DNA from: Sideroxydans sp.
GTDB lineage: Bacteria > Pseudomonadota > Gammaproteobacteria > Burkholderiales > Gallionellaceae
Assembly (NCBI GenBank): GCA_013140695.1
Contig: JABFSI010000068.1
Coordinates: forward strand, 1 to 40,301
Length of the DNA stretch: 40,301 bases
Direction: 5' to 3'
Positions 5,565-33,305 of the stretch are shown one piece after another. The translations under genes were made by a program, and so were the position numbers. Below the pieces are notes generated by a model. The model had not been told where the DNA came from and ran no database searches. It saw only the letters and a list, made by a program, of their open reading frames with translations. Numbering within the stretch: position 1 is the first letter of the stretch; each line of letters starts with the position of its first letter.

Positions 5565-8000
5565 TTACGCCCCCACACGCAATTGCGCAGGATCAAAATC
5601 ATCCACCATGATGACCTTGCGACGCAATGCGAAGTCGCGTTCTAACTGTACCGATTGCTCGGCATTAATCACCCCTTTTTCGCGCGCTTCCGCGACCAGT
5701 TTCATTTCGTCACGCGATTGGAGCGCACCTGCTTTACGCGCTTTTTCCAATTCAGCTTGCACAGGTTCGCATAGCAGCGTGCTTGCCAACGAGGCTTCCA
5801 ATGCCCCCACTGCATCTGCTTCATCGGTGGGAATATACATGCCTGCTGTCAGACGATCACGCGCTGCACTGGGCTGCATCAACAGCGTAGACACCTGATG
5901 GCCTAACGCATCTGAAGGCGGCCTGCGACATTGCCCCAAAGGGAAAATGAGCCCGCGCATAACGAAAGCAAAGAAGCGATTAGGGAAATTTTGCAACACC
6001 CCATCGAAGGCGACTTGAATGCGATACAGGGCATCGTCCATCGCCCAATTAAGCAACGGCAAATCTGCTTCTGGGCGACCGTCATCTTCAAATTTTTTCA
6101 GGGTTGCCGAACAGATATACAACTGACTCAACACATCGCCCAAACGTGCCGATAATTTTTCGCGGCGTTTCAATGCACCGCCCAAAGACAACATGGCAAT
6201 GTCAGATGCGAAAGCAAACGCGGCGGCGTAGCGTGTCATGTGTTGATAGTAACGATGCGTGGGCGCTTCAGTCGGCACATCAATCAAACGCCCATTTGCA
6301 AGGGCATACAGCAACGTGCGTACCGCATTACTCAAACTAAAACTAATGTGCCCAAAAAAAGCTGCGTCAAAATTGTGCACGGCTTTTTGGTGATTAGGTT
6401 CGCTCGCGGCTTGAATCTCTTTCAACACATAAGGATGCGCGCGTACTGCGCCTTGCCCAAAAATAATCAGACTACGGGTGAGGATGTTCGCGCCTTCCAC
6501 GGTGATGCCAATCGGCGCACTCTGATAAAAACGCCCCAGATAATTGTCGGGACCGAGGCAAATACCCTTGCCTCCATGCACATCCATCGCATCGTTAATC
6601 ACCATGCGTCCGCGCTCGGTACAGTGATATTTGACGATAGCCGAAATGACCGAAGGCTTCTCGCCCAAGTCCACCGCCAACGCGGTCATCTTGCGCGCCG
6701 CATCCATGGCATAAGCATGGCCGCCGATACGTGCCAGTGCTTCTTCCACGCCCTCAAACTTACCCACTGGTACATGAAATTGTTTGCGCACACGGCCATA
6801 AGCACCGCTGGTGCGCGCCGCCAACTTGGCGCCTCCTGTCGCACTCGCGGGTAGGGAAATAGAACGCCCTGCCGCCAAACATTCCATCAACATGCGCCAT
6901 CCTTGGCCGATACGCGTCATGCCGCCGATGATGTATTCCATGGGAATAAATACATCGTTACCTTGCGTAGGGCCATTTTGAAACGCGCAATTGAGCGGGA
7001 AATGACGCCGCCCAATTTTTACGCCGGGCGTGTTGGTGGGAATCAACGCCAAGGTAATGCCGCGCGATTGTTCTGCGCCCAAAATATGCTCGGGGTCGTA
7101 TAGCTTGAATGCCAAGCCCAGCAAGGTGGCCACGGGCGCTAACGTGATGTAGCGTTTTTCCCACGTGACCCGCACACCCAACACATTATGCTGGCCGTTA
7201 AATTCACCATAACACACGATACCCACATCAGGGATCGCACCCGCATCCGAGCCTGCCATCGGGCCGGTGAGTGCAAAACACGGCACTTCTGTCCCCTTTG
7301 CCAAGCCACGCAGATATTGGTCTTTCTGCTCGCGCGTGCCGTACTTCAGCAACAATTCAGCAGGGCCTAGCGAGTTCGGCACCATCACCGTCACCGCTGC
7401 CGTACCGCTGCGCGAAGCGACCTTGGTGACCACCGCTGAATGCGCTTGCGCGGAAAATTCCAAGCCGCCGTACTCCTTCGGGATAATCATGCCGAAGAAG
7501 CCTTTGTCTTTGATGAACTGCCAGGTCTCGGGGGATAAATCGTGACGTGTGTGCGTGATGTCCCAATCATCCAACATGGCGCACAACTGCTCAACTTCGT
7601 TATCTAAAAAAGATTGCTCTTCTGCACTCAACCCCGTTTTTGGAAACGCTAACAATTTTGTCCAACGCGGACGTCCACTGAACAACTCGCCCTCCCACCA
7701 CACCGTACCCGCGTCGAGCGCCTCCTGTTCGGTTTGAGAAACTTGCGGAAGTATTTTGCGGAAAATTTTGAGGACAAAACTACTAATCAACAGGCGGCGC
7801 AGAAAAGGCACACCCAGCACCAACACAAACACCGTCAACGCGATATACACCAGCTGCAAGGCATCGCCCGATATGCGACTTTCCATTGCAATCACCGGCA
7901 CCATCACACTGATAGCAATCAACCAACTCCAGATAGACGCTTGAAAGAAAGCCAGCACCAGCAGTGTCATCAGCACCACAATTGTTATCAGTATCGCCAT
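5565..8000 (-). CDS. fadE: Acyl-CoA dehydrogenase, FadE type
   Basis: This 811-aa protein matches the length of E. coli FadE (814 aa), much longer than classical acyl-CoA dehydrogenases. Two to three hydrophobic segments occupy residues 1-75, anchoring it to the inner membrane. The FAD-binding acyl-CoA dehydrogenase core follows (CFALTGPMAGSDAG and the segment VHGGKGICLGPDNYLG near the active site). A long C-terminal region corresponds to the DUF1974 extension of FadE. It introduces the 2,3-double bond in acyl-CoA, passing electrons to ETF. The frame is open to 8081, but the ATG at 8000 has GAGG 6 nt ahead and gives the hydrophobic N-terminus usual for FadE. It heads the minus-strand beta-oxidation run and is divergent from the copper-efflux genes (146-bp gap). 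Confidence 0.95.
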   Translation of the reverse strand: MAILITIVVLMTLLVLAFFQASIWSWLIAISVMVPVIAMESRISGDALQLVYIALTVFVLVLGVPFLRRLLISSFVLKIFRKILPQVSQTEQEALDAGTVWWEGELFSGRPRWTKLLAFPKTGLSAEEQSFLDNEVEQLCAMLDDWDITHTRHDLSPETWQFIKDKGFFGMIIPKEYGGLEFSAQAHSAVVTKVASRSGTAAVTVMVPNSLGPAELLLKYGTREQKDQYLRGLAKGTEVPCFALTGPMAGSDAGAIPDVGIVCYGEFNGQHNVLGVRVTWEKRYITLAPVATLLGLAFKLYDPEHILGAEQSRGITLALIPTNTPGVKIGRRHFPLNCAFQNGPTQGNDVFIPMEYIIGGMTRIGQGWRMLMECLAAGRSISLPASATGGAKLAARTSGAYGRVRKQFHVPVGKFEGVEEALARIGGHAYAMDAARKMTALAVDLGEKPSVISAIVKYHCTERGRMVINDAMDVHGGKGICLGPDNYLGRFYQSAPIGITVEGANILTRSLIIFGQGAVRAHPYVLKEIQAASEPNHQKAVHNFDAAFFGHISFSLSNAVRTLLYALANGRLIDVPTEAPTHRYYQHMTRYAAAFAFASDIAMLSLGGALKRREKLSARLGDVLSQLYICSATLKKFEDDGRPEADLPLLNWAMDDALYRIQVAFDGVLQNFPNRFFAFVMRGLIFPLGQCRRPPSDALGHQVSTLLMQPSAARDRLTAGMYIPTDEADAVGALEASLASTLLCEPVQAELEKARKAGALQSRDEMKLVAEAREKGVINAEQSVQLERDFALRRKVIMVDDFDPAQLRVGA

Positions 8001-8059
8001 ATCGAACCTCTTATTTTTGTTTGAGTGGATGGGACGAACTGTAACGCCAGCGGCGAGTG

Positions 8060-8091
8060 CTGACAATGTATAAATTCCCACTACCTATACT
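8060..8091 (+). promoter_or_regulatory. Possible promoter of the copper-efflux operon with an extended spacer
   Basis: CTGACA (8060-8065) and TATACT (8086-8091) are fair -35 and -10 matches, separated by 20 bp. A spacer this long is unusual for a plain sigma-70 promoter, but 19-20 bp is what MerR-family activators such as CueR act on. No clear CueR dyad is visible in the spacer and no merR-type gene is in the window, so this is a weak candidate. Confidence 0.25.
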
Positions 8092-8146
8092 GAGGTCTAA
8101 GCTCCTCCCGATTGACTCGCCCGCTTCACTTTGCCACACTGCGTCC

Positions 8147-8536
8147 ATGTCTCACCTAACCCGAAAATTTATTGCCGTATTCATGCTGTTGTGGTTGCCG
8201 CTCTCTAGCGGTAGCGCACTAGCGGCTTCGCTCGCGATGCAGTTGCAGCAGGGCGAATGTCATGAGTCGGCTGAAATGATGTCGATGTCGCACGAAGACA
8301 TGATGGATCACGACATGATGCAGCATGACCATGAAGCCATGCAGGCGAGCGATGAGAGCAATTCTGGTTGCACGTCTTGCGGCGTTTGCCATTTGGCTTG
8401 TACGGCTTATCTCGACACACCCGTGGTTGCCATGCAACTGTTCGATTCTGGTTCGCAAGCCGTTAGTTCTATCCCTGAAACTTTTGTTTCTCATCTTTCC
8501 GCACCGCTCGTTCCCCCTCCTCTCGCCCGCGTCTAA
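8147..8536 (+). CDS. Small secreted Met/His-rich protein, putative copper-binding
   Basis: A 129-aa protein starting MSHLTRKF, with a Sec signal peptide (hydrophobic residues about 8-24, cut after SALA). The middle (about residues 40-70) is crowded with Met, His and Asp (EMMSMSHEDMMDHDMMQHDH), a composition that suits Cu(I)/Cu(II) or Ag binding. A cluster of four cysteines follows in CTSCGVCHLAC. The frame is open 30 codons further up, but the chosen ATG gives a proper signal peptide; no strong ribosome-binding site is seen at either. It resembles the small proteins annotated as CopL or DUF2946 that sit in front of copper or Cus operons, though I cannot assign it firmly. It is first in the run with the TolC/CusB/CusA genes and is probably a periplasmic metal buffer or sensor. 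Confidence 0.75.
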   Translation: MSHLTRKFIAVFMLLWLPLSSGSALAASLAMQLQQGECHESAEMMSMSHEDMMDHDMMQHDHEAMQASDESNSGCTSCGVCHLACTAYLDTPVVAMQLFDSGSQAVSSIPETFVSHLSAPLVPPPLARV

Positions 8537-8538
8537 CG

Positions 8539-8580
8539 CAGGACGAGTCCGTCTGTCATTCCTAAACGTTTCTCGTCCTG
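8539..8580 (+). promoter_or_regulatory. Inverted repeat between the Met/His-rich gene and the TolC-like gene
   Basis: CAGGACGAG (8539-8547) and CTCGTCCTG (8572-8580) are a perfect 9-bp inverted repeat with a 24-nt loop, placed just after the stop codon at 8536. No T run follows. It may be an mRNA processing or attenuation structure that sets the ratio between the small protein and the efflux complex, or an operator. Confidence 0.3.
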
Positions 8581-8637
8581 TCCGTTCGGCAGTCGTTTTC
8601 GGCTGTCCGTTTGTTTTGAAAAAACAGGATGTGGATC

Positions 8638-22322: not shown

Positions 22323-22355
22323 ATTGATACGGGAAATGATGATCCCCGTATCAAT
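22323..22355. terminator. Hairpin between convergent DUF4166 and hslO genes
   Basis: ATTGATACGGG (22323-22333) pairs perfectly with CCCGTATCAAT (22345-22355), an 11-bp stem with an 11-nt loop. It lies exactly between two convergent genes and overlaps the hslO stop codon. It lacks a clear T run on both sides, so it is a likely but not ideal bidirectional terminator. Confidence 0.5.
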
Positions 22356-23232
22356 GCCGAGTATCGCTAGGCTGTATCACGGCTAAGTCGCTGAACACCG
22401 CTTCGGCATCGACCGAGTCGAACACATAACGTTCGTTGCAGAATTCGCAGTGCACTTCGATCTCGCCACGCTCAGCGAGGATAGAGCCGACCTCTTCCCT
22501 GCCCAGCATCTGCAACATGCGGCCTACGTTCTCGCGTGAACACGCACACTGGAACACGATGGTCTGGGCTTCGAACAAGCGGATGTCTTCTTCGTGATAG
22601 AGGCGATGGATCAGCTCATCGGCGGGCAGTTGTAGAAGCTCATCTGGTTTGAGCGTATCGGCCAACTGCCCCGCCCTACCCCACGCATCAGCATCGTGCG
22701 ATTCATCTTTTTCGGGCAGTTTTTGCAACAACATCCCCGCTGCCACTTTGTCATCCGCTGCCAGCCACAACCGCGTCTCCAATTGCTCGGAGCGAGTCAT
22801 GTAGTTCTGCAGTATCTCGGCGATGGTATCGCCTTCGAGGGCGACGATGCCTTGGTAGGCTTGGTTGCCGTCTTTCGGATCGAGGGTGATGACAAAACGG
22901 CCATCCCCCACTAGGTCTTGCAATGTGCCTTGCGCCAAGTCACCTTCCCATTTGGCTGTGGCACGCAATGCCAAGTCACCGGTACATTCGACGACCAACA
23001 ATTTCACCGCGCCTTTGCCATGGATCTGCAACACCATGGAGCCTTGTAGTTTGAGCGTGGCCGAAAGCAACACAGCGGCGGCACACAACTCGCCCATCAG
23101 GTTCTTCAGCACAGGCGGATAGTCGTGACGCTCGATGACGGATCGCCAAACGCTGTCGAGATGCACGATCTCGCCGCGTATCGGCAGGTGTTCGAATAGG
23201 AAGCGATGCAGAGTATCAGTTGGATTTTTCAT
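22351..23232 (-). CDS. hslO: Redox-regulated chaperone Hsp33
   Basis: A 293-aa protein of normal Hsp33 length (about 290). It begins with DTLHRFLFEHLPIRGEIVHLD (typical N-terminus) and has the C-terminal redox switch: four zinc-binding cysteines arranged CxC (CACSRENV) and CxxC (HCEFCNERY) about 27 residues apart. In the cytoplasm, oxidation releases zinc and switches on holdase activity that protects proteins under hypochlorous acid or heat-plus-oxidant stress. The frame is open to 23259, but those codons start with ATT, so the ATG at 23232 is chosen although its ribosome-binding site is weak. It is convergent with the DUF4166 gene and 30 bp downstream of the M48 peptidase. Confidence 0.96.
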   Translation of the reverse strand: MKNPTDTLHRFLFEHLPIRGEIVHLDSVWRSVIERHDYPPVLKNLMGELCAAAVLLSATLKLQGSMVLQIHGKGAVKLLVVECTGDLALRATAKWEGDLAQGTLQDLVGDGRFVITLDPKDGNQAYQGIVALEGDTIAEILQNYMTRSEQLETRLWLAADDKVAAGMLLQKLPEKDESHDADAWGRAGQLADTLKPDELLQLPADELIHRLYHEEDIRLFEAQTIVFQCACSRENVGRMLQMLGREEVGSILAERGEIEVHCEFCNERYVFDSVDAEAVFSDLAVIQPSDTRH

Positions 23233-23262
23233 AGGCCGCGATGATACCACGCAGCCCAATAA

Positions 23263-24282
23263 CTACCGACGTTCAGGGCACATCTGCTGGATGCGTTCTG
23301 CTGTCGCCGGATGGCTGGAGAGGTAATCCATCACAACATCATCCGCATTGCGTGTGGTCGCTGGGGACGCTTGATGCGCAGCCTCTAGTTTTTCTAACAT
23401 CGTGCCCAACAAGCAAGACGATAGATGATTCGCACGCAAGGTTTGTTTCGCTATCTCGTCTGCTTCAGCCTCCATCTCGCGCGAGTATTGCGCCTGCATG
23501 ACGACGGAAGGTACGGTCGCTAATAAGCTGCTGACATCGCCCATATACCACGTCATCAACAATCCCACCGCCGAGCTTTGCAACACCATACGCGCGGCGT
23601 GACGTTGCTCCACGTGCGCGCGTTCATGTGCCAACACCGCCACAATCTCGTCATCGTTTTGCGTTAATGCGACTAATTCATCGAGCAACACAATTGTGCC
23701 GTCAGGCAATGCAAATGCGTTCGCACCCATCTTGGGCGCGCTGCGAAACTCAATGCGATACGGCATCTGTGCGGCAGTGAGGGGCGTGAGTTGCGCGAAA
23801 GCCCGCGCCAACGTTTGCTGACGTGTTGCGTCTAACTGGCTGGGTTGCAGCATCACGCGATCCAAAGTGGATAACGTAGAGCTGCCCATTTTCTGCAACA
23901 CGATGGAGGGCAAGCGCTGGGCCATCACTTGCGCGCTCCATGGCAACAGGTAGACATAAGAAAAAATCAGCACGGCCACAAATGCCACCGAGGCGATTCC
24001 TGCCCAGGCAAAACTGTGTTGCATAGCATCTAGCCAAGAACGCTGCGTTTGAGTGTGCACAAGGAGCGCATCTAATGCGGCGAGGTCGGTCACTTCGCAA
24101 TGTCCACCCGCCGAAAAAGTAAGGCGGCGCGGCGTATTACCGAGACGTTCGGAAATGTTCACTTGTGATAACGGCCACCGCAACTCAAATTCCGCGCCGC
24201 ACAGCACCCACACGTCATCTACTAATGTGATGTCCACTGCTTGCGCAGCAGCGGATTGCCCGTCGTAGTAATGCCCTTGCAT
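23263..24282 (-). CDS. M48-family zinc metallopeptidase, membrane-anchored
   Basis: A 339-aa protein with an N-terminal domain (residues 1-75, DVWVLCGAEFELRWPL) of the type that precedes bacterial M48C peptidases. One transmembrane helix (about 91-113) follows, then a peptidase domain with the zinc site HERAH (219-223) and third-ligand region EAEAD (271-275). The active site probably faces the periplasm. It is 5 bp downstream of the DUF898/YjgN gene, so the two are co-transcribed. This pairing recurs in proteobacteria as far as I recall and suggests a membrane protein/protease partnership in envelope quality control. The substrate is unknown. Confidence 0.9.
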   Translation of the reverse strand: MQGHYYDGQSAAAQAVDITLVDDVWVLCGAEFELRWPLSQVNISERLGNTPRRLTFSAGGHCEVTDLAALDALLVHTQTQRSWLDAMQHSFAWAGIASVAFVAVLIFSYVYLLPWSAQVMAQRLPSIVLQKMGSSTLSTLDRVMLQPSQLDATRQQTLARAFAQLTPLTAAQMPYRIEFRSAPKMGANAFALPDGTIVLLDELVALTQNDDEIVAVLAHERAHVEQRHAARMVLQSSAVGLLMTWYMGDVSSLLATVPSVVMQAQYSREMEAEADEIAKQTLRANHLSSCLLGTMLEKLEAAHQASPATTRNADDVVMDYLSSHPATAERIQQMCPERR

Positions 24283-24287
24283 ATCGC

Positions 24288-25274
24288 TTACAACGAGATG
24301 TCGAGGTCGAACATTTCAGCCGTTTCTTCTCCCAAGGCGTTGGTCAATTGCGCTTGCCCTGCAACGAATGTCGCTACATCGCCCGCCGCCAACAGCCCCA
24401 TATTCTCCAGTTTGTAACGCATCATACGAATCTGTGCGAAAGGAATGAACAAGCCCAAGGTGAAAATAATACCGAGCAGATTGGTGAAGCTAATCCACAC
24501 ATAGGGCTTGATTTGCAAGCGGCTATAGAAAGTGTGTTCGCCCAAGCCGGTTGAGTTCCAAATGAGATTGGGGAGGCTTACCGCAAAATAGCCTGCAATG
24601 AAAATGAAGGCGATCGGCAATAAAATAAACATTAAGTGCCAGCCGAGTGCCGCAAAAATCCCCACCAACAACCCAATCCCAAACAGCATGCCGAGCAAGC
24701 GTAGATAGATGCCGTAAAAACTTTTTACCGAGGCATCGAAACTAAAAAAAGTATCGCCAAACTCGCTGTTGCCATGCTGAAACTGCTTGATGCGCTGATG
24801 GGTGAAAGGTGCCAAGGTGTACAAACTCAACACCGTCAAAATAGGAAACAGCAAGAACACGGTGTACGCCGCCGCATCACTCCCCGCAAAAGAAAAACGC
24901 AAACCACGATAGCTGCTGTTGTGCAATTTGAAACGCAGTGAACGCACAATCATCCACGGCATAATCGCTGCAATAAGCAGAAAAATAATGATCGCCAGTA
25001 GAGGGCTAAACACACCCGCGAGGTAATAAATCGCCAATAATCCAAAGGCAATAAGACGGCCTTTTAGAATAGCTATCGGCAAGCCGTGATATTCAAAATG
25101 TGCGCCCGCGAGTTGCGTGTTGCGATAAAAATACTGCGTACGCCGCACCTTTGCCCACGCGCTGTAGATGCCCAGCGTCACCACCGAAAGCAGCAAATTA
25201 ACAATCCAGATTTTGAAGTACTCGCGCCCCGTACCCGTAAAAACGAAAGCGTGTTCTTGTTGTTGCGATTGCAT
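24288..25274 (-). CDS. DUF898/YjgN-family inner-membrane protein
   Basis: A 328-aa multi-pass membrane protein. The N-terminal block FTGTGREYFKIWIVNLLLS, followed by TLGIYSAWAKVRRTQYFYRN (about residues 13-60), is diagnostic of DUF898 (E. coli YjgN). Six or more hydrophobic helices follow, and the motif recurs as TLGLFIPFAQIRMMRYKLEN near the C-terminus, a repeat of the first block that indicates an internal duplication. A GAGGAG site precedes the ATG. Function is unknown; the coupled M48 peptidase gene points to a role in the cell envelope. Confidence 0.92.
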   Translation of the reverse strand: MQSQQQEHAFVFTGTGREYFKIWIVNLLLSVVTLGIYSAWAKVRRTQYFYRNTQLAGAHFEYHGLPIAILKGRLIAFGLLAIYYLAGVFSPLLAIIIFLLIAAIMPWMIVRSLRFKLHNSSYRGLRFSFAGSDAAAYTVFLLFPILTVLSLYTLAPFTHQRIKQFQHGNSEFGDTFFSFDASVKSFYGIYLRLLGMLFGIGLLVGIFAALGWHLMFILLPIAFIFIAGYFAVSLPNLIWNSTGLGEHTFYSRLQIKPYVWISFTNLLGIIFTLGLFIPFAQIRMMRYKLENMGLLAAGDVATFVAGQAQLTNALGEETAEMFDLDISL

Positions 25275-25466: not shown

Positions 25467-26027
25467 TCAATCATCCCAATCAGGGAAATTAGGAATACGC
25501 ACCGTATCTTCATCGAATACGCCCTTGTCCGCTTGGGTGTGGCAAGCATCGCAATAACTCAAAGACTTCACATCTTTATTGCCCTTAACCATACGTTCAG
25601 GAATTTCATGATGCTTGCGCTTGATGTAACGCACTTCAGTGATACGCAACGGTGCTTCGACACCTTCGGTCGCCTTGGCGATTTTGCGGGCGCGTTTGTA
25701 ATACGACTTGTCCGCCGCATTTTCCAACACGTAAGCTTTAATGGGTGCCAATACATCCGCATCCAATTCGGCATTTTCGCCAAAGTGTTCTGCTAAAGCC
25801 GTTTCGTTCAACAGCTTTTCCCATGATTGCGTGGGCAATAAGCCAGGTTGGTAAGCAAAATGGCAGGAACCACATTCGTCTTTGTATTGCTTGTTGGTCA
25901 CTGCATGTACTTCCTTTTGGCGCAAGGGAGTGAACATGGCTTCCGCCAAGGTTTCTTCGGCCACGGCAACGCCGCTGCTCAACAGTAAAGTGGCACACAC
26001 AGCGGCTATTTTTAATTTCAATTGCAT
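25467..26027 (-). CDS. Periplasmic diheme cytochrome c (DHC), copy 2
   Basis: A 186-aa secreted protein. The signal peptide spans residues 1-23 (ending AVA), and the haem motifs are CGSCH (52-56) and CDACH (149-153). The blocks DECGSCHFAYQPGLLPTQSW and GVFDEDTVRIPNFPDW assign it to the DHC family (PF09626), in which DHC passes electrons to the oxygen-binding haem protein SHP. The ATG at 26027 has AAGGAG 7 nt upstream; a TTG one codon earlier is less likely. It is last in the operon, 15 bp after the SHP gene, and followed by a perfect terminator. It is paralogous to 14567-15070, sharing the two-motif layout and the FDED.. RIP tail. Confidence 0.94.
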   Translation of the reverse strand: MQLKLKIAAVCATLLLSSGVAVAEETLAEAMFTPLRQKEVHAVTNKQYKDECGSCHFAYQPGLLPTQSWEKLLNETALAEHFGENAELDADVLAPIKAYVLENAADKSYYKRARKIAKATEGVEAPLRITEVRYIKRKHHEIPERMVKGNKDVKSLSYCDACHTQADKGVFDEDTVRIPNFPDWDD

Positions 26028-26042
26028 CAAGAAACTCCTTAA

Positions 26043-26447
26043 TTATTGCGCGATTAGAAAGGTCAGAAAGTCGGCCTTCTCTTGCACGGTGCATTCACGA
26101 CCCCAAGCATCTTTGCAATTGCGCTTGAACCATTTTTCGATTTTCTTTTCATCGGTGAAGCGCTCTGCATTCACCTTGGCAGACATCGGCTGAATCACTT
26201 TACTGGTCTTGTTATGTTTGCCAGCCTTACTCAAGTCGGTACCGTGGCAGGTAGCGCAAGACATCAGCGTACCATCTTCCCCCTTCACTTCTTTAGCCCA
26301 ATCTTGCTTGGCTTTAGCGGCATCCACCTTACTCACACCCGCAGCTTTATAGCCTGCCAATAAAGCATCACTCGCGGGACTTGCATGCGCCGTCGTCGCT
26401 GCAACCACACAAGCAATCAAACCCAACATTGAAAATATTTTATTCAT
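26043..26447 (-). CDS. shp: SHP-type monoheme cytochrome c (DUF1924)
   Basis: A 134-aa secreted protein with a signal peptide (residues 1-22) and one haem motif, CATCH (64-68), in a DUF1924 (PF09086) context: SDALLAGYKAAG, KGEDGTLMSCATCHG, IQPMSAKVNAERF and KKIEKWFKRNC. Rhodobacter SHP of this family has a high-spin haem that transiently binds oxygen or nitric oxide. C111 and C119 may form the disulphide described for SHP. A good AAGGA site precedes the ATG. In known clusters shp lies beside dhc and a cytochrome b gene, just as here. Its physiological substrate is not known, so oxygen/NO binding is transferred from the family. Confidence 0.9.
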   Translation of the reverse strand: MNKIFSMLGLIACVVAATTAHASPASDALLAGYKAAGVSKVDAAKAKQDWAKEVKGEDGTLMSCATCHGTDLSKAGKHNKTSKVIQPMSAKVNAERFTDEKKIEKWFKRNCKDAWGRECTVQEKADFLTFLIAQ

Positions 26448-26469: not shown

Positions 26470-27078
26470 TTACCAAGTTAGCTTAATTGCAGCCACCATG
26501 CCCAGCGCGCCTAGCTCGGCGACCCCTGCATGGCTAACTTCAACGGAGGACTGCGCCGATTTGTTGACGGCGTACGCCATTAAGGCCGCGCCCGAAATAC
26601 CCAGCATGATGTGCAGATTGTCTGGGTCGGTAAAGCCATCTTCCAAATGAAAATCATTCCAGTGAAACAACACGCCACTGGTAATCGTTGCTGCGGCCAG
26701 CGCAACTGTCGCCTTGGCTAATTTGGCATGTGCGCCATTTACTTCGCGTGGCGGTTGCGGGCCGACACACGTACCTTCACAGCCTTCTGGTGCAGTGACC
26801 GCAGTCAAACCTGCCGCCACAATCGTTGCCAAGCCCAGCACCAAATGCGTGTTGCTACCAGAAATCCACGCCGGCTCAAACGGCGCTTGAGGGGTAGTGA
26901 TAGATGCGGCAACGGTGGTATTCGGTGCACCCACGTCATTCGCCGCCAATAAAAAAGAATGCGCTGTAGGCGTGGGCAAACTCAAATTCAAAGTTGACTC
27001 TTGCGCTTGCGCTGACACACTCGCCATGAGCAGCGTAGCCGCCAGCGTCAGTCGAGCTAATTGATGATGTTCCTGCAT
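26470..27078 (-). CDS. Unknown four-helix membrane protein with histidine-headed helices
   Basis: A 202-aa protein of no family I recognise. A signal peptide-like start (residues 8-25, cut after AQA) precedes an Ala/Thr/Pro-rich linker (about 27-75) and four hydrophobic segments: 78-96, 117-139, 155-172 and 183-200. Each segment begins at or within two residues of a histidine (H78, H117, H156, H183), with further H139 and H144 at the end of segment 2 and a CxxxC pair (C100, C104) in the first loop. This looks like a membrane cytochrome b-like arrangement. The gene is 22 bp before the SHP gene and 11 bp after the cytochrome b561 gene, with an AGGGAG site, so it is part of the redox operon. Confidence 0.82.
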   Translation of the reverse strand: MQEHHQLARLTLAATLLMASVSAQAQESTLNLSLPTPTAHSFLLAANDVGAPNTTVAASITTPQAPFEPAWISGSNTHLVLGLATIVAAGLTAVTAPEGCEGTCVGPQPPREVNGAHAKLAKATVALAAATITSGVLFHWNDFHLEDGFTDPDNLHIMLGISGAALMAYAVNKSAQSSVEVSHAGVAELGALGMVAAIKLTW

Positions 27079-27089
27079 GGATGACTCCC

Positions 27090-27686
27090 TTATGAATGTT
27101 GCGAATTCGTTGAAACTACTTTTTTCATACCCGTGATCATTGAGCGCACCAAGTTTTCTTTGTGTTGGATACTGCCCGCAAGCACGCCCAATAAATGCAG
27201 TGGGATAACCAGCAAAGCGACATCCACAAAGAAGCTGTGTGCATGGCGGAAAAAATAACTGGTGTCGTCACTCACTTGATTCGCCAAAAACAACAACGGA
27301 CCTTCGTAATCCACGGTCGCCAGCGTAATCAAGCCCGATGCAAAAATAGCCAACAACAAGGCTAGCAAACCAAACACCATCAGCGCTCCCGCCGGGTTAT
27401 GCCCGTAGTAATGAGCGGGCTGTCCGCCGCGCATAGCGCGCACATAAGCCAAGGTTTCTTGTCGAGAAAAAATAAAAGATTTGAAGCGCGCATACGGGTT
27501 GCCGATGAAGCCCCACAGCACACGCAAGGCCAGCAAGGCAATGAGCGCATAACCAATCAATACATGCGCATCCAAAATGCCCACTTCAGCTGATACATAG
27601 GCCAATACAAAACAAACCACCAGCGACCAATGAAACAGGCGCACTGGCACATCCCATACTTTTAACTGTTGATTATTTACATTCAT
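27090..27686 (-). CDS. Cytochrome b561-type membrane protein
   Basis: A 198-aa protein with four or five membrane helices. It starts with VWDVPVRLFHWSLV (residues 10-23), the signature of bacterial di-haem cytochrome b561 / Ni-Fe hydrogenase-type b cytochromes. Histidines likely to bind haem are H19, H41, and those in the FFRHAHSF and IPLHLLG blocks of the later helices. It would take electrons from quinol in the inner membrane and deliver them to periplasmic DHC and SHP. It is first in the operon; an AAGG lies about 5 nt before the ATG. A TAAAAT box on the minus strand at 27722-27727 is a possible -10. Confidence 0.93.
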   Translation of the reverse strand: MNVNNQQLKVWDVPVRLFHWSLVVCFVLAYVSAEVGILDAHVLIGYALIALLALRVLWGFIGNPYARFKSFIFSRQETLAYVRAMRGGQPAHYYGHNPAGALMVFGLLALLLAIFASGLITLATVDYEGPLLFLANQVSDDTSYFFRHAHSFFVDVALLVIPLHLLGVLAGSIQHKENLVRSMITGMKKVVSTNSQHS

Positions 27687-27825: not shown

Positions 27826-30165
27826 TCAATAGGGAAGATGACTAACAAATACTTCTTCAAACTGGGCGGCGGGTAGCGCTTTGGAGAACAGGAAGCCTTG
27901 CAATACTTCGCAGCCATGCGCCACCAGAAAACTACGTTGCGCTTCAGTTTCTACACCTTCCGCAATCACCTTCAGTTCCAACTCTTTGGCCATCGCAATC
28001 ATGGCTTTTATTAACGCAGCATCATTTGCGTCTTCTTCTAAATCTCGTACAAAGCTTTGATCAATCTTGATGCTGTCGAACGGCAAGCGCTTCAAATACT
28101 GTAGGGAGGAATAGCCCGTGCCAAAATCGTCCAATGAAAAACTCACCCCCAACGCTTTAAGCGCATTCATTTTGGCAATCACCTCGTCCACATTTTCCAG
28201 CAATATGCTTTCCGTCAATTCCAAATCTAAAAGCGCGGGCGGAATCCCCGTTTCAGCGAGAATGTGTTGCACAGTTTCAACAAAATCAGCCTGCCGGAAT
28301 TGACGCGCACTCACATTCACCGCCACCACTAAATCGCGCATCGCGTCATTCGCTTGCCATTGCGCAATTTGCAGACAGGCACTACGTATCGCCCACTTAC
28401 CCACCGATATGATGAGCCCCGTCTCTTCTAGCAATTCAATGACACCGTTAGGCAGACTCGCGCCGCGTTCAGGATGTTGCCAACGCAACAAGGTTTCCGC
28501 GCCCACCACACGCCCATCACAATCCCATTTGGATTGGTAGTAGAGGACAAATTGATGCGCTTTATGCGCCTCGCGCAATTCTTTTTCCAGCTGCGCACGC
28601 CACATCATCTCGGCTTGCATTTGCGGGTCAAAGAAGCGCACTACATTGCGCCCTGCCTGCTTGGCTTGATACATAGCCACATCGGCGCGCCGCAACAATT
28701 CTTCAACCGTTTCATCGCGCCCATTGAACATGGTCACGCCAATACTAGAGCTACAGTGATGCACCACTTGCACGCCCGACATCATAGGGTTGTTACGCTG
28801 CAAGTAGTAAGGCTGCGCCAACGCCTCGCGAATTTTTTCGGCCATCACACCCGCTTGCACGCCCGCTTGTGCCAAGTCTTCACTCAAGCCTTCACACAAC
28901 ACCACGAACTCGTCACCGCCCAAACGCGCCAACAAATCACTTTCGCGCACGCACAAATTGAGACGGCGCGCCACCTCGATGAGCAACTGATCGCCGACCT
29001 CATGTCCCTCGGTATCGTTCAAAGTTTTGAAATTATCCAAATCCAGAAATAGCAGCGCACCGTGAAAATGGTGGCGCGTCGTCATGGCAAGCAATTGGTT
29101 GATATCGTCATGCAGCAATCGGCGGTTAGCCAGCTGCGTGAGCGGATCATAGAAAGCCAAGCTGTGTGCAGACTCTTCAGCGGCGATACGCTGTGTCATA
29201 TCTAGGATGATGGCAAACACGCGCGCGCCCTTGCCAGATTTAAGCGGCGACAAATGCACTTCCACCGCACGAATCTCACCGCTTTGCAGGCGATGCCTAG
29301 CCTTGCTTTCGCCCGACCAAGTGTGTGTTCCCAACGGTGGCGGTGACTCATCCAATTGCAAAAAATTCAGCGTTTGAAATTGTGCATGCGGGTAGCCATA
29401 AAAAATACACGCCGCTTGGTTAGCTTCCAAGATGTTGCCTGTTTTTTCATCAATCAACAGCATGGGCATTAAAGGACGCTCAAATACTTGACGAAATTCG
29501 CTTTCGCTTTTCTTTAACTGGCGCGCTTGCACCAGAGCCATCAAACGAATTTCCACATTTTGTCGGGCGCGCACCGAGGTACGCCGAATAGTGAGCAACA
29601 GGTACATCAAAAACAAAATCAAAGGCAAGCCAATTTGCGAGCCGATTTCAGAATCAGAGGTAAAGCTCACAATGAGGAATGGCGTCACGCCTACCAAGGT
29701 AAAAGGCACAGCGCTCTTCAAGTCAGCGACATAGGACATGATGCCGCCCGCAATAAAGCCAATCAAAATGAACGTTAGGAAGGTTTGATTGAGGATGCCG
29801 CTATGCGGAAAAAACGACGTAACGCCTAATCCCCACACGGCTCCTGACGCAATCACCCCCACCCGAAAGCGGTTCAGCCACTGATTCACGTTATCCAAAT
29901 TCACCGTGGCTGAAAAATTGCGAAATATAGCCCCGCGTGCCAGTGAAACGAGAAACAACACCAACCACCACGTAATGAGCAAGCCATGATTGACCTTATC
30001 CCACTCCACGTAGGCCACCATGCAGGCCAGCACCAACCCCGTCAGCAAGGTGATGCGCAAACCCGCCCACATCTGCGCTAAAACATCGAGATTGATTTCA
30101 CGCGTCAGAACAGACTGCTCATCGTTTGGCAAGAAATGCTTTTGCTGCATTGAGGAGGTTTTCAT
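27826..30165 (-). CDS. Membrane c-di-GMP signalling protein (TM-PAS-GGDEF-EAL)
   Basis: A 779-aa protein with an N-terminal block of about five hydrophobic helices (residues 30-190), a PAS domain (about 220-330), a GGDEF domain and an EAL domain. RLGGDEFVV (about 414-422) is intact and preceded by an RESD inhibitory site at the canonical spacing (RxxD, 5 residues, GGDEF), so it is likely an active and feedback-inhibited diguanylate cyclase. The EAL motif reads GAETLLRW (about 553-560), with the catalytic Glu kept, and DDFGTGYSSL is intact, so phosphodiesterase activity is plausible too. The start is not backed by a strong ribosome-binding site. It stands upstream of the cytochrome operon and follows a second protein of the same kind. 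Confidence 0.95.
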   Translation of the reverse strand: MKTSSMQQKHFLPNDEQSVLTREINLDVLAQMWAGLRITLLTGLVLACMVAYVEWDKVNHGLLITWWLVLFLVSLARGAIFRNFSATVNLDNVNQWLNRFRVGVIASGAVWGLGVTSFFPHSGILNQTFLTFILIGFIAGGIMSYVADLKSAVPFTLVGVTPFLIVSFTSDSEIGSQIGLPLILFLMYLLLTIRRTSVRARQNVEIRLMALVQARQLKKSESEFRQVFERPLMPMLLIDEKTGNILEANQAACIFYGYPHAQFQTLNFLQLDESPPPLGTHTWSGESKARHRLQSGEIRAVEVHLSPLKSGKGARVFAIILDMTQRIAAEESAHSLAFYDPLTQLANRRLLHDDINQLLAMTTRHHFHGALLFLDLDNFKTLNDTEGHEVGDQLLIEVARRLNLCVRESDLLARLGGDEFVVLCEGLSEDLAQAGVQAGVMAEKIREALAQPYYLQRNNPMMSGVQVVHHCSSSIGVTMFNGRDETVEELLRRADVAMYQAKQAGRNVVRFFDPQMQAEMMWRAQLEKELREAHKAHQFVLYYQSKWDCDGRVVGAETLLRWQHPERGASLPNGVIELLEETGLIISVGKWAIRSACLQIAQWQANDAMRDLVVAVNVSARQFRQADFVETVQHILAETGIPPALLDLELTESILLENVDEVIAKMNALKALGVSFSLDDFGTGYSSLQYLKRLPFDSIKIDQSFVRDLEEDANDAALIKAMIAMAKELELKVIAEGVETEAQRSFLVAHGCEVLQGFLFSKALPAAQFEEVFVSHLPY

Positions 30166-30398: not shown

Positions 30399-33305
30399 TT
30401 AGCGTTGCAGTAGCCATTGCTCGAACTGTTCAAGTGGCACAGGTCTACCGAACAGGTAGCCTTGAAAATTGCCACAGCCGTAACGATGTAACAGTTTGAA
30501 TTGCGCTTCTGTTTCAACACCTTCAGCCATCACATCCAACTCAAAATTCATGCACAAATCCACGATGGTCATCACCATCACTTTGTCGCCACTGTCCGTG
30601 GATAAGTTGCGCACAAATGACTGGTCAATTTTAATTTGCGTAAGCGGCAATTGCTTCAAGTGAGACAGCGAGGAATAACCGGTGCCAAAATCATCTAGGG
30701 CGAAGTTCACGCCAAACTCTTTTAGCGCCTGCATCTTGGCGATGGACTCCTCGATGTTGTTCAACACCATACTTTCGGTGAGTTCTAGCTTCAGCAACAT
30801 GGGATTGATGCCATGCTCAGTCACCGCACGCATCACTTGCGCCACAAAATCGGCCTGATGGAATTGTTTAGCGCAGACGTTCACCGCCAGACTCAGCTGT
30901 CCTAAATCTGCACGGCCTGACCAAGCTTGAATCTGCGCACACGCGGCATTCAACACCCACAGTCCTATCGGAACAATCAGCCCATTTTCTTCCGCCAAAG
31001 TGATGAAATCGTTAGGCAAAATTAGGCCCTTGAGCGGGTGCTGCCAGCGCAACAAAACCTCTGCCCCAATTGGCTTGCCTACTGCGTTCACTTGCACCTG
31101 ATAAAACAATTGAAATTGCTGATGCTTCAGTGCCACTTGCAAGTCGGTTTCCAGTGTGGCGCGCAATTCGATCGCTGCCTGCATCGCCTTATCGTAAAAA
31201 CGAATGGCGTTACGCCCTGCATGCTTTGCCTGATACATAGCAATATCTGCATGCTTCAACAACGCATCCTTGCTCTCTAAATGACCCCGAAACAAAGCCA
31301 CGCCAATGCTTGATGACGTTTGATGCGGCACAGCCCCTAAGTCATAAGGCTTACTCAAACCGATGCGTATTTTTTCGGCGACCACTTCCGCTTGCTTGGC
31401 CGCTTCTTCGTCCACCGTACTCAACGATTCCAGCACCACTACAAACTCATCGCCGCCCAAACGGGCCACGGTATCGCCTTCACGAATCACCGTTTGTAAA
31501 CGTTTCGCCACTTCGCACAGCAACAAATCGCCTACGTCATGTCCTTGGCTATCGTTGAGTTTTTTGAAGTCGTCCAAATCGAGCAACATCAGCGCCCCAT
31601 AACGTCCATTACGCGTGCTGACGGTCAACGCTTGTTGCGTACGTTCTAGCAACAAGCGGCGATTCGGCAAACGGGTCAGCGGGTCATAAAACGCGAGGTC
31701 GTGCATTTTATTTTCCATGGCTTTACGCTCGGTCATGTCCCAGATTGCACCAATGATGCCCACCGTTTTGCCGCTGCCATCCGTTAGCTTCGCCTTGTGA
31801 AAGATGACATCGCGCAACTCGCCGTCACCGCGCTTTACATTGCTTTCATACACCTGTTCATCCACGCCCTCTTGCAACAGGTCTAGGTCTTTATCGCGAT
31901 AATCTGCCGCTAGTTTTTGCGGTGAAATTTCGAATACCGTTTTACCCACGATGTCGATTTTGTCTTTACCCAAAAAATCGCAGAACTGCTTGTTACACCC
32001 CGTATAACGACCCTCGGCATTTTTATAAAAAATAGGTAGCGGCAACGCTTGCACCAACGTTTCCGTAAAGGCCAAACTGGCTTTCAATGAAGCTTCTATT
32101 TTTTTGCGCTCACGAATATCGCGGCAGGCACCATATACACGACCATTCGGCAATAGCACTGCATTCAATTCCAGCGGAATTTTTTGGCCTGTTTTGCTGA
32201 CTAGGCGAATGTCTAAAACTTGACGGGGGCCTTGCACAATTTGCTGTCCCACGCGCCGATAGGTATCGCGCCAATCTGGCGGTACTAAATCAAATACACT
32301 CATGCGATATAACTCAATGCGTTCATAACCTAACAGGGTTACAACGTTGTCATTGACATAAGAAATGCGCCCATCTTTCTCGGTAATGAATACCGCGTCG
32401 GGGGCATTTTGCAAAGTCATTAACAAACGCTCTTCACTCTCCCGCAATGCGGTAATCATCGACGCTGACACTTGATTAGAACGCTCCATCAGCGATTGAT
32501 ACTCACGTCCCAACACAGACAATTCGTAAGCATTTTTACGTGCCATTCGCTGATCAAACAAATTAGCCATCAATCCGCCGCCGAACCACACTAAGGACAA
32601 CGACGCAATCATCATGGCCAGCAACTTGGGTTCAATACGCAAGACGGTGACGAGACACATGCTCCCTTCAGGAATGTGCAGCCCCAACATGGCGGTGTAG
32701 TGCATCGCTGAAATCGCAGTCCCCATCATCAGCGCACCCAACACTGTGCGCGGCAATGCGGAAACGTGCAGCCAATCTTCACGATACATAATGAGCAACG
32801 CCCCCCATGATGCGGCGATGGCAATGAGCACCGACAAGGCAAACAACCAAGGGTCGTAAAAAATAGAGGGCGACATTTTGAGCGCAGCCATGCCCAGATA
32901 GTGCATGGCACTGATGCCCATCCCCATCAATAATCCGCTGATGAAAATGCGCCGCGAACTAACGATGGGATCGCGCAATACGCGAAAGCCTAGCAGAGCT
33001 GCAACAACCGAGGGCAGCAAGGAAAAAACCGTTAAGTGCAGGTCATAGCCGATTGCAACGGGTAACTGAAACGCCAGCATTCCCACAAAATGCATACTCC
33101 AAATTGCCAAGCCTAGGGTGGAAGCGCCCGCCAACATCCAGATTGTTGCAGTGCGGCCGCTGCTTTCGCGCATACGCTGGGCATGCAGCAAGGCCGTGTA
33201 CGAGCCGATGATGGCAATCAGTACGGACAGCACAACCAGCGATATATTCCAAGTGATAGACACGGTGCGCGAAGTTGAATGAGCGTGAACCCATTCTAAA
33301 CCCAA
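30399..33305 (-). CDS. MHYT-PAS-PAS-GGDEF-EAL c-di-GMP signalling protein
   Basis: A 968-aa protein. The membrane part carries three MHYT repeats (SMHFVGM near residue 70, SAMHYLGM near 132, SAMHYTAM near 198), a domain thought to sense O2, CO or NO through copper. Two PAS domains follow (about 290-410 and 425-540), then GGDEF (RLGGDEF near 615, with the REGD inhibitory site) and EAL (GAEVLLRW near 745, DDFGTGYSSL). Both enzyme domains look active. The frame begins right after a stop with TTG (33305); the alternative GTG at 33263 would also keep the first helix. Neither has a clear ribosome-binding site, so the start is uncertain. A gas or redox sensor fits the neighbouring cytochrome operon. 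Confidence 0.94.
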   Translation of the reverse strand: MGLEWVHAHSTSRTVSITWNISLVVLSVLIAIIGSYTALLHAQRMRESSGRTATIWMLAGASTLGLAIWSMHFVGMLAFQLPVAIGYDLHLTVFSLLPSVVAALLGFRVLRDPIVSSRRIFISGLLMGMGISAMHYLGMAALKMSPSIFYDPWLFALSVLIAIAASWGALLIMYREDWLHVSALPRTVLGALMMGTAISAMHYTAMLGLHIPEGSMCLVTVLRIEPKLLAMMIASLSLVWFGGGLMANLFDQRMARKNAYELSVLGREYQSLMERSNQVSASMITALRESEERLLMTLQNAPDAVFITEKDGRISYVNDNVVTLLGYERIELYRMSVFDLVPPDWRDTYRRVGQQIVQGPRQVLDIRLVSKTGQKIPLELNAVLLPNGRVYGACRDIRERKKIEASLKASLAFTETLVQALPLPIFYKNAEGRYTGCNKQFCDFLGKDKIDIVGKTVFEISPQKLAADYRDKDLDLLQEGVDEQVYESNVKRGDGELRDVIFHKAKLTDGSGKTVGIIGAIWDMTERKAMENKMHDLAFYDPLTRLPNRRLLLERTQQALTVSTRNGRYGALMLLDLDDFKKLNDSQGHDVGDLLLCEVAKRLQTVIREGDTVARLGGDEFVVVLESLSTVDEEAAKQAEVVAEKIRIGLSKPYDLGAVPHQTSSSIGVALFRGHLESKDALLKHADIAMYQAKHAGRNAIRFYDKAMQAAIELRATLETDLQVALKHQQFQLFYQVQVNAVGKPIGAEVLLRWQHPLKGLILPNDFITLAEENGLIVPIGLWVLNAACAQIQAWSGRADLGQLSLAVNVCAKQFHQADFVAQVMRAVTEHGINPMLLKLELTESMVLNNIEESIAKMQALKEFGVNFALDDFGTGYSSLSHLKQLPLTQIKIDQSFVRNLSTDSGDKVMVMTIVDLCMNFELDVMAEGVETEAQFKLLHRYGCGNFQGYLFGRPVPLEQFEQWLLQR

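Follow-up and report, generated by a model that had tools for sequence, protein, structure and literature searches.

IrcC of the ircABCD cluster: a membrane protein with five conserved histidines and a putative diheme b-type cytochrome

Introduction

The window analysed here, a stretch of 40,301 nucleotides from a Sideroxydans contig (JABFSI010000068.1), contains an ORF inserted between a gene for a cytochrome b561 and a gene for an SHP-type cytochrome c. What would a protein without a recognised family do among these electron carriers? The periplasm-to-inner-membrane electron route in neutrophilic iron oxidisers is an open question, and this protein touches it.

The homologous genes have been reported before, and the statements here follow the available excerpts of each paper. 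In Zhou 2022 (PMC8788666), Slit_1321-1324 form a cluster that is highly expressed and responds to Fe(II); homologues were reported from Sideroxydans CL21, Gallionella ES-2 and Mariprofundus PV-1, and Slit_1322 was called a hypothetical extracellular protein. The cluster genes were co-located in 50 Gallionellaceae genomes according to Hoover 2023 (PMC10734462). The 2025 CL21 paper (PMC12442390) named the cluster ircABCD, listed IrcC as hypothetical with a predicted inner-membrane location, linked ircA/ircB to grcJ/grcI of Ghiorsea and proposed ircABCD as a marker of iron-oxidation ability. Fe(II)-induced expression was published for Sideroxydans homologues (PMC8788666, PMC12442390), that is, for genomes other than that of the window. 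In a proteome (PMC12016527), Slit_1322 was at the 56.8 to 87.3 percentile in seven of eight columns and at 0 in one, so the protein is made; cluster protein levels were comparable across all samples. SHP operons that include genes for a membrane cytochrome b and for DHC were described by Meyer 2010 (PMC2909971) as a likely quinol-to-SHP path, Mariprofundus included. The available excerpts of the literature on ircABCD/Slit_1322 and on SHP-DHC-b561 gave no description of IrcC as a cytochrome; where found, the published descriptions call it 'hypothetical', and invariant histidines, a helix bundle and a haem proposal are absent from them.

Here we propose, with a probability of roughly 0.55, that IrcC represents a new family of b-type cytochromes with two bis-His haems, which would exchange electrons between the membrane and DHC/SHP. 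A known gene of no known function is thereby given a strong conserved-residue signature and a two-haem proposal.

Identity of the gene and its neighbours

As shown in Table 1, the ORF is the second of a run of four genes in the order ircD, ircC, ircB and ircA, separated by 11, 22 and 12 nt. It starts with ATG and has GGGAG 5′ of the start codon. The first-pass annotation, made from the sequence of the window, had placed it between a b561 gene and an SHP gene, and the Pfam matches of the neighbours agree, with the DHC gene beyond. A putative single transcript for the four genes is supported by the tight spacing and by the published co-regulation of the homologous cluster. Lying between ircD and ircB with ircA next, and adjacent to genes for SHP and DHC, the window protein is identified by gene order and sequence as IrcC (Slit_1322), which in the Fe(II)-responsive ircABCD cluster of Gallionellaceae is the member annotated as hypothetical.

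Table 1. Features of the ircC locus in the window.
Feature	Position	Strand	Basis
ircD, prokaryotic cytochrome b561 (PF01292)	27090..27686	minus	Pfam E 3.9e-23
ircC, 202 aa, putative diheme b-type membrane cytochrome	26470..27078	minus	ORF, relatives alignment, structure model
ircB, SHP-type monohaem cytochrome c (PF09086)	26043..26447	minus	Pfam E 8.2e-38; structure 1dw0 E 3.5e-23
ircA, dihaem cytochrome c DHC (PF09626)	25467..26030	minus	Pfam E 1.5e-36; DHC structures 3u99 E 1.7e-34, 2fw5 E 9.8e-25
IrcC N-terminal hydrophobic segment, probable signal peptide, residues 1-25, AQA before Q26	27004..27078	minus	model helix 3-24; A25 near-invariant; putative cleavage
IrcC predicted helix 1, residues 74-94	26797..26859	minus	model
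IrcC predicted helix 2, residues 116-142	26653..26733	minus	model
IrcC predicted helix 3, residues 152-175	26554..26625	minus	model
IrcC predicted helix 4, residues 184-201, then invariant C-terminal Trp202	26476..26529	minus	model and alignment
H78 codon, side A (putatively periplasmic)	26845..26847	minus	82/82; 28/28, 13 new
H117 codon, side B (putatively cytoplasmic)	26728..26730	minus	82/82; 28/28, 13 new
H139 codon, side A	26662..26664	minus	82/82; 28/28, 13 new
H156 codon, side A	26611..26613	minus	82/82; 28/28, 13 new
H183 codon, side B	26530..26532	minus	82/82; 28/28, 13 new
Acidic stretch HWxDF..xDG..DPDN, residues 139-154, between helices 2 and 3; D142, D153 invariant	26617..26664	minus	alignment

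Structure 1dw0, listed as 'cytochrome c', is taken by us to be the Rhodobacter SHP. The computed pI is basic for IrcB (9.06) and acidic for IrcA (5.72). The same parts make up the SHP/DHC/cytochrome b operon of Rhodobacter and others in the available excerpts of PMC2909971, with IrcB corresponding to SHP, IrcA to DHC and IrcD to b561; compared with that operon, IrcC is an extra component.

The Pfam search with the IrcC window protein gave no family above its cut-off and the NCBIfam search no match, and none of ten IrcC family members reached a Pfam cut-off. The earlier statement that no family was recognised therefore stands for the cut-offs of these two databases, but the gene itself was already in print as Slit_1322/IrcC (PMC8788666, PMC10734462 and PMC12442390, available excerpts).

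Further genes of the window lie on both sides of the run. Directly 5′ of ircD are two large proteins that by eye are of the GGDEF/EAL type (27826-30165 and 30399-33305, minus strand). A gene at 22351-23259 (minus strand) is probably that for Hsp33. Slit_1325 is called Hsp33 in print. Between it and ircA are genes for an M48 peptidase (23263-24282) and a DUF898 protein (24288-25274).

Conserved residues

Relatives were collected by a scan of species genomes, in which the best 80 of 86 relatives were kept, and by profile searches of a class sample and a phylum sample. For the alignment, 108 sequences were reduced to 82 by dropping those with the last 150 residues equal to another's; L104 and L080, which are cut by contig ends, are likewise not among the 82. 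Apart from the window gene, the profile searches gave 34 places, 10 in the class sample and 24 in the phylum sample; 29 of them became loci and were examined, the other five being weaker places of the phylum sample. One locus (L120) held a 33-residue fragment and gave no protein. The resulting 28 proteins comprise 15 that repeat members of the 82 and 13 that are new; ten of the new ones have 42-52% identity to the nearest of the 82, and one (L123) is 99% identical to a member.

H78, H117, H139, H156 and H183 were identical in all 82 non-redundant relatives, which have 29-89% identity to the window protein in the alignment, and these five histidines and the terminal Trp were present in each of the 28 profile-found proteins. 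The scan patterns contained H156 or H139, so the invariance of these two in the scan is partly built in; H78, H117 and H183 were outside the patterns. Conservation spans Gallionellaceae, Zetaproteobacteria and several other gammaproteobacterial families. Also invariant in the 82 members are G82, G135, D142, G148, D153, N154, L159, G163, M194 and W202. The first-pass annotation had drawn attention to H78, H117, H156 and H183 and had named H139 and H144 as two extra histidines. Its first four proved invariant, also in the 13 new members, and so did H139; H144 is in the window sequence as reported, but is kept in only 57 of the 82. In the alignment the five histidines form a real signature of the IrcC family, and H144 lies outside it.

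Two other features of the sequence were noted. The last residue, W202 (window 26473-26475), is Trp in every member of both sets, the 13 new ones included. Loop 1 has a CxxxC pair at residues 100 and 104 (window 26767-26781), with C100 in 52/82 and C104 in 51/82 members, which would be cytoplasmic under the topology proposed below.

Distribution and gene linkage

One ircC copy was found in the genome of the window. When 61 genomes were searched as relatives, 31 had a match: the own genome, 29 of 33 of the same genus and one of three others of the same family; no match was found in 24 genomes from other families of the order. The best 80 of the 86 relatives of the species-genome scan came from Sideroxydans, Gallionella, Sideroxyarcus and other Gallionellaceae or Nitrosomonadales, from Ghiorsea, Mariprofundus and other Zetaproteobacteria, and from a few other gammaproteobacteria. 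IrcC was present in 10/274 genomes of the class sample and 25/299 of the phylum sample, the own genome included in both. Three of the nine other class-sample genomes (G082, G188, G096) contribute loci already present in the scan as L097, L102 and L110. The other 24 of the phylum sample all belong to one family, f213, which we take for a Zetaproteobacterial family because its members equal Ghiorsea and Mariprofundus loci of the species scan. A plasmid search for IrcC gave no match.

Linkage was counted over 80 loci, the window included and L104 left out; 55 of them are flanked by 3 kb or more on each side. Within 6 kb, these 55 loci contained a gene for DHC in 53 cases, for SHP in 48 and for b561 (IrcD) in 43; all three were found in 42 loci and none in two. 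DHC is the most constant partner of IrcC and IrcD the least constant. Constant linkage to shp/dhc genes had been named earlier as a sign of a haem role, and the linkage is indeed near constant. The gene order is b561-IrcC-SHP-DHC in seven of the other nine genomes of the class sample; the remaining two carry IrcC-DHC, and their SHP gene is on a separate contig. In none of the 13 Zetaproteobacterial loci of the species scan was a b561 gene found within 6 kb of IrcC (flanks of 3 kb or more on each side in five, fewer than 400 bases upstream in two). In the phylum sample, b561 was absent in 14 of 19 f213 loci examined and present in five from other genera (flanks of at most 1.5 kb); 12 of the 14 repeat loci of the species scan. 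IrcC may be the only membrane electron carrier of the cluster in Zetaproteobacterial loci without IrcD.

SHP was found in all nine other class-sample genomes with IrcC, against 42 of the 273 other genomes of the sample; 33 of these 42 have no IrcC. Cyc2 matches were found in 42 of the 273, but in only one of the nine with IrcC, by a profile of three rows from one genome with which misses are possible. The own genome of the window has a Cyc2 match (E 2.4e-137). In the class sample IrcC tracks the SHP/DHC module and not Cyc2-type iron oxidation. At one locus (L153) an IrcC homologue stands in the order b561, IrcC, monohaem, dihaem, and three ORFs on the same contig, 464-472 aa long and each with a single N-terminal CXXCH, are taken by us for Cyc2.

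Predicted fold

An AlphaFold model made with the 82 sequences (mean pLDDT 84.1) has helices at residues 3-24, 74-94, 116-142, 152-175 and 184-201; an earlier model with 30 sequences had nearly the same helices at pLDDT 72.3. The predicted fold is a four-helix bundle of weakly hydrophobic helices, with Kyte-Doolittle family means of 1.53, 1.36, 1.34 and 1.37 for helices 1-4, that is, of marginal hydrophobicity. Charges in the helices are few (0.27-1.51 per segment).

The first-pass annotation had put a histidine at the head of each of four helices, all at one membrane face. The former holds, H78, H117, H156 and H183 being near or just before predicted helix starts, but an equal placing at one face is wrong for an up-down bundle. 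In such a bundle helices 1 and 3 begin on the side on which helix 2 ends, so H78, H156 and H139 are together there; helices 2 and 4 begin on the other side, which holds H117 and H183. In the model, the histidines would have to pair as H78/H156 and H117/H183, on opposite sides. With the histidines left out, the angle to the conserved face of the own helix is 11 degrees for H78, 2 for H117, 10 for H156 and -15 for H183; H139 is 42 degrees from the conserved face of its helix. The conservation moment defining this face was significant only for helix 4 (p 0.004; 0.26, 0.50 and 0.07 for the others).

Helices 2 and 3 are joined by an acidic loop, with 5.73 D+E against 0.30 K+R per member. Loop 1 has 1.16 K+R and 2.95 D+E, and loop 3 has 0.33 K+R. 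The loop charges and the signal peptide suggest, weakly, that the H78/H139/H156 side is periplasmic, the positive charges being too few for a firm topology. At 1.5 Å per residue, the 22 residues from H117 to H139 span roughly 33 Å along one helix, and the 16 residues from H78 to the end of helix 1 about 24 Å. The two histidine levels look far apart, so two haems at these levels would be close to the limit of the usual tunnelling range or past it.

Comparison with known cytochromes

Eukaryotic-type cytochrome b561 has six transmembrane helices and one haem-ligand His on each of four of them. IrcC resembles this type (PF03188; 4o6y, 5zle) in having His on four successive helices and one more before the third, and HxxLG motifs are common to both. 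The histidines are at positions 51, 84, 106, 118 and 157 in 4o6y and 50, 86, 108, 120 and 159 in 5zle, and the spacings are 39, 22, 17 and 27 in IrcC compared with 36, 22, 12 and 39 in 5zle. IrcC differs in helix number, the model having four after the N-terminal segment, and one His per helix on four helices is present in it as a sequence pattern only. With prokaryotic b561 (IrcD), IrcC would share four helices and a probable role between quinone and DHC; the His pattern differs, since PF01292 has its histidines on helices 1 and 2 and twice on helix 4.

Family searches gave matches below the cut-offs. For PF03188 (cut-off 23 bits) the window protein had no match at E up to 10, and L060 scored 15.7 bits. 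The weak Pfam matches (E up to 1) were most frequently to cytochrome b families: Cytochrom_B561 in 23/82 members (best E 0.0019) and Ni_hydr_CYTB (PF01292) in 12/82 (best E 0.0041). PF01292, with its cut-off of 30.1 bits, did not match the window protein. DUF4079 (PF13301, cut-off 31.4 bits) matched the window protein at 15.0 bits (E 0.03) and ten of the 82 (best E 0.0066), and it was found in none of 120 genomes in a genome search. Bacterial PF03188 matches (L140-L143) resemble, by eye, prokaryotic b561 proteins.

Profile comparison of IrcC with b561 gave E 0.028, with H117 aligned to H84/86 and H156 to H118/120, and with the IrcD profile E 0.15. Masking the b561 histidines lowered the score from 18.1 to 16.0. 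Scores as high or higher were obtained in 2/200 column shuffles, in 3/100 block shuffles and with a reversed template, and homology to b561 was not established. A test of helices 1-2 against helices 3-4 aligned H78 to H156 and H117 to H183 (E 0.002), and this score was equalled by 1/300 column shuffles and 1/48 rotations. Internal duplication was rejected: the reversed control scored higher (24.5 against 19.7), and with the histidines masked E was 0.2 and 84/200 shuffles were as high.

The PDB sequence-profile search gave no match for either IrcC alignment (A1, A2), and Foldseek with the IrcC model none at E < 0.001. A structural aligner matched the model to the de novo diheme bundle 4D2 (7ah0; Z 10.8, rmsd 2.8, 100 aligned) and to cytochrome b6 (4h0l; Z 9.9, rmsd 3.4, 122 aligned), but unrelated helical bundles tie with both, and the top row is a designed bundle (Z 13.4). 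Structures 4o6y and 5zle were absent among the 50 matches listed by Foldseek and the 50 listed by the structural aligner, which excludes nothing. By analogy, IrcC may work like b561; membership of that family is not claimed.

Discussion

In the reading we prefer, IrcC would be an inner-membrane protein with an up-down four-helix bundle after a signal peptide. One haem b, towards the periplasm, would have H78 of helix 1 and H156 of helix 3 as its ligands; a second, towards the cytoplasm, would be bound by H117 of helix 2 and H183 of helix 4. The periplasmic haem would be covered by H139 and the acidic loop HWxDF..xDG..DPDNLH, which would also provide a docking surface for the periplasmic cytochromes, the basic SHP (IrcB) and DHC (IrcA). 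Electrons would pass between the quinone pool or membrane and DHC/SHP, with IrcC working alongside the b561 protein IrcD in clusters that have it and substituting for it in those that do not.

We infer the haem content, the topology, and the electron transfer with its direction and partner. Two observations, the invariant histidines and the linkage to DHC/SHP, count for the two-haem reading, together with the confidently predicted bundle, the position of the histidines near conserved faces, the few helix charges, the b561-like His order, the weak Pfam matches to cytochrome b families and the 4D2 and cytochrome b6 structural rows. The main points against it are the distance between the two histidine levels and the absence of any family match; the failed b561 controls, the weak conservation moments, the marginal hydrophobicity and the tied structural matches also weigh against it.

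The invariance of D142 and D153 beside H78, H139 and H156 could be read differently, with H117/H183 still holding a haem b on the cytoplasmic side and these five residues forming a periplasmic mononuclear site for iron or another metal, for redox or binding. The residues HxxD...DxxH, at the ends of helices 2 and 3, read as a palindrome, and 3-His-plus-carboxylate sites are known from other metal enzymes. The expression of the Sideroxydans homologues rises with Fe(II) (PMC8788666, available excerpts). However, D153 could cap the N-terminus of a helix, the acidic loop could serve for docking, and eight of the nine other class-sample IrcC genomes have no Cyc2 match, so that a Cyc2-type iron-oxidation role is not general; we consider this site a serious rival, though an unlikely one. 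Quite unlikely, too, is a combined form, in which IrcC would be a transmembrane cytochrome with a 3-His/2-Asp periplasmic metal site above or instead of haem, exchanging electrons between a metal ion or SHP-bound ligand and the quinone pool, as a compact bacterial counterpart of the b561 ferric reductases that is unrelated to them or very distantly related by descent.

The near-constant position beside DHC, and an acidic loop facing a basic SHP, would also suit a cofactor-free protein that acts as a scaffold in the membrane or as an assembly factor, keeping DHC and SHP at the membrane or close to IrcD, with histidines that are structural or pH-responsive. This is doubtful, since it does not account for the invariance of five histidines at the ends of helices, of which four lie near conserved faces; moreover, the other neighbour, DHC, is acidic, and some copies have no such partners at all. 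These orphans (L058 and L060, genes at 7986-8597 and 7989-8591) have no DHC, SHP or b561 within 6 kb, and their genomes hold another ircC copy (L073 and L037). Four helices of marginal hydrophobicity with conserved His and Asp might instead belong to a cluster-linked protein that transports or exports iron, haem or protons, but with no transporter family at a cut-off and electron-carrier genes nearly always adjacent, this appears very unlikely.

Should IrcC prove to be a second b-type cytochrome, there would be two candidate membrane carriers in the cluster, of which IrcC, not IrcD, keeps its place next to DHC in the loci where IrcD is not found. The two-haem proposal is directly testable at the five named residues. 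Recasting ircB as SHP, a haem protein known for O2 binding, links the iron-oxidation and the SHP/DHC literatures. With no Cyc2 match in eight of the nine other class-sample genomes that carry it, IrcC alone may not mark iron oxidation; the test covered Cyc2 as the iron oxidase and the genomes of the class sample. In ten Zetaproteobacterial loci (L091, L093-L095, L098-L100, L105, L106 and L108), IrcC-SHP-DHC is followed by two to five small c-type cytochromes of one family; in four loci these are about 130-310 aa long, nearly all with one CXXCH.
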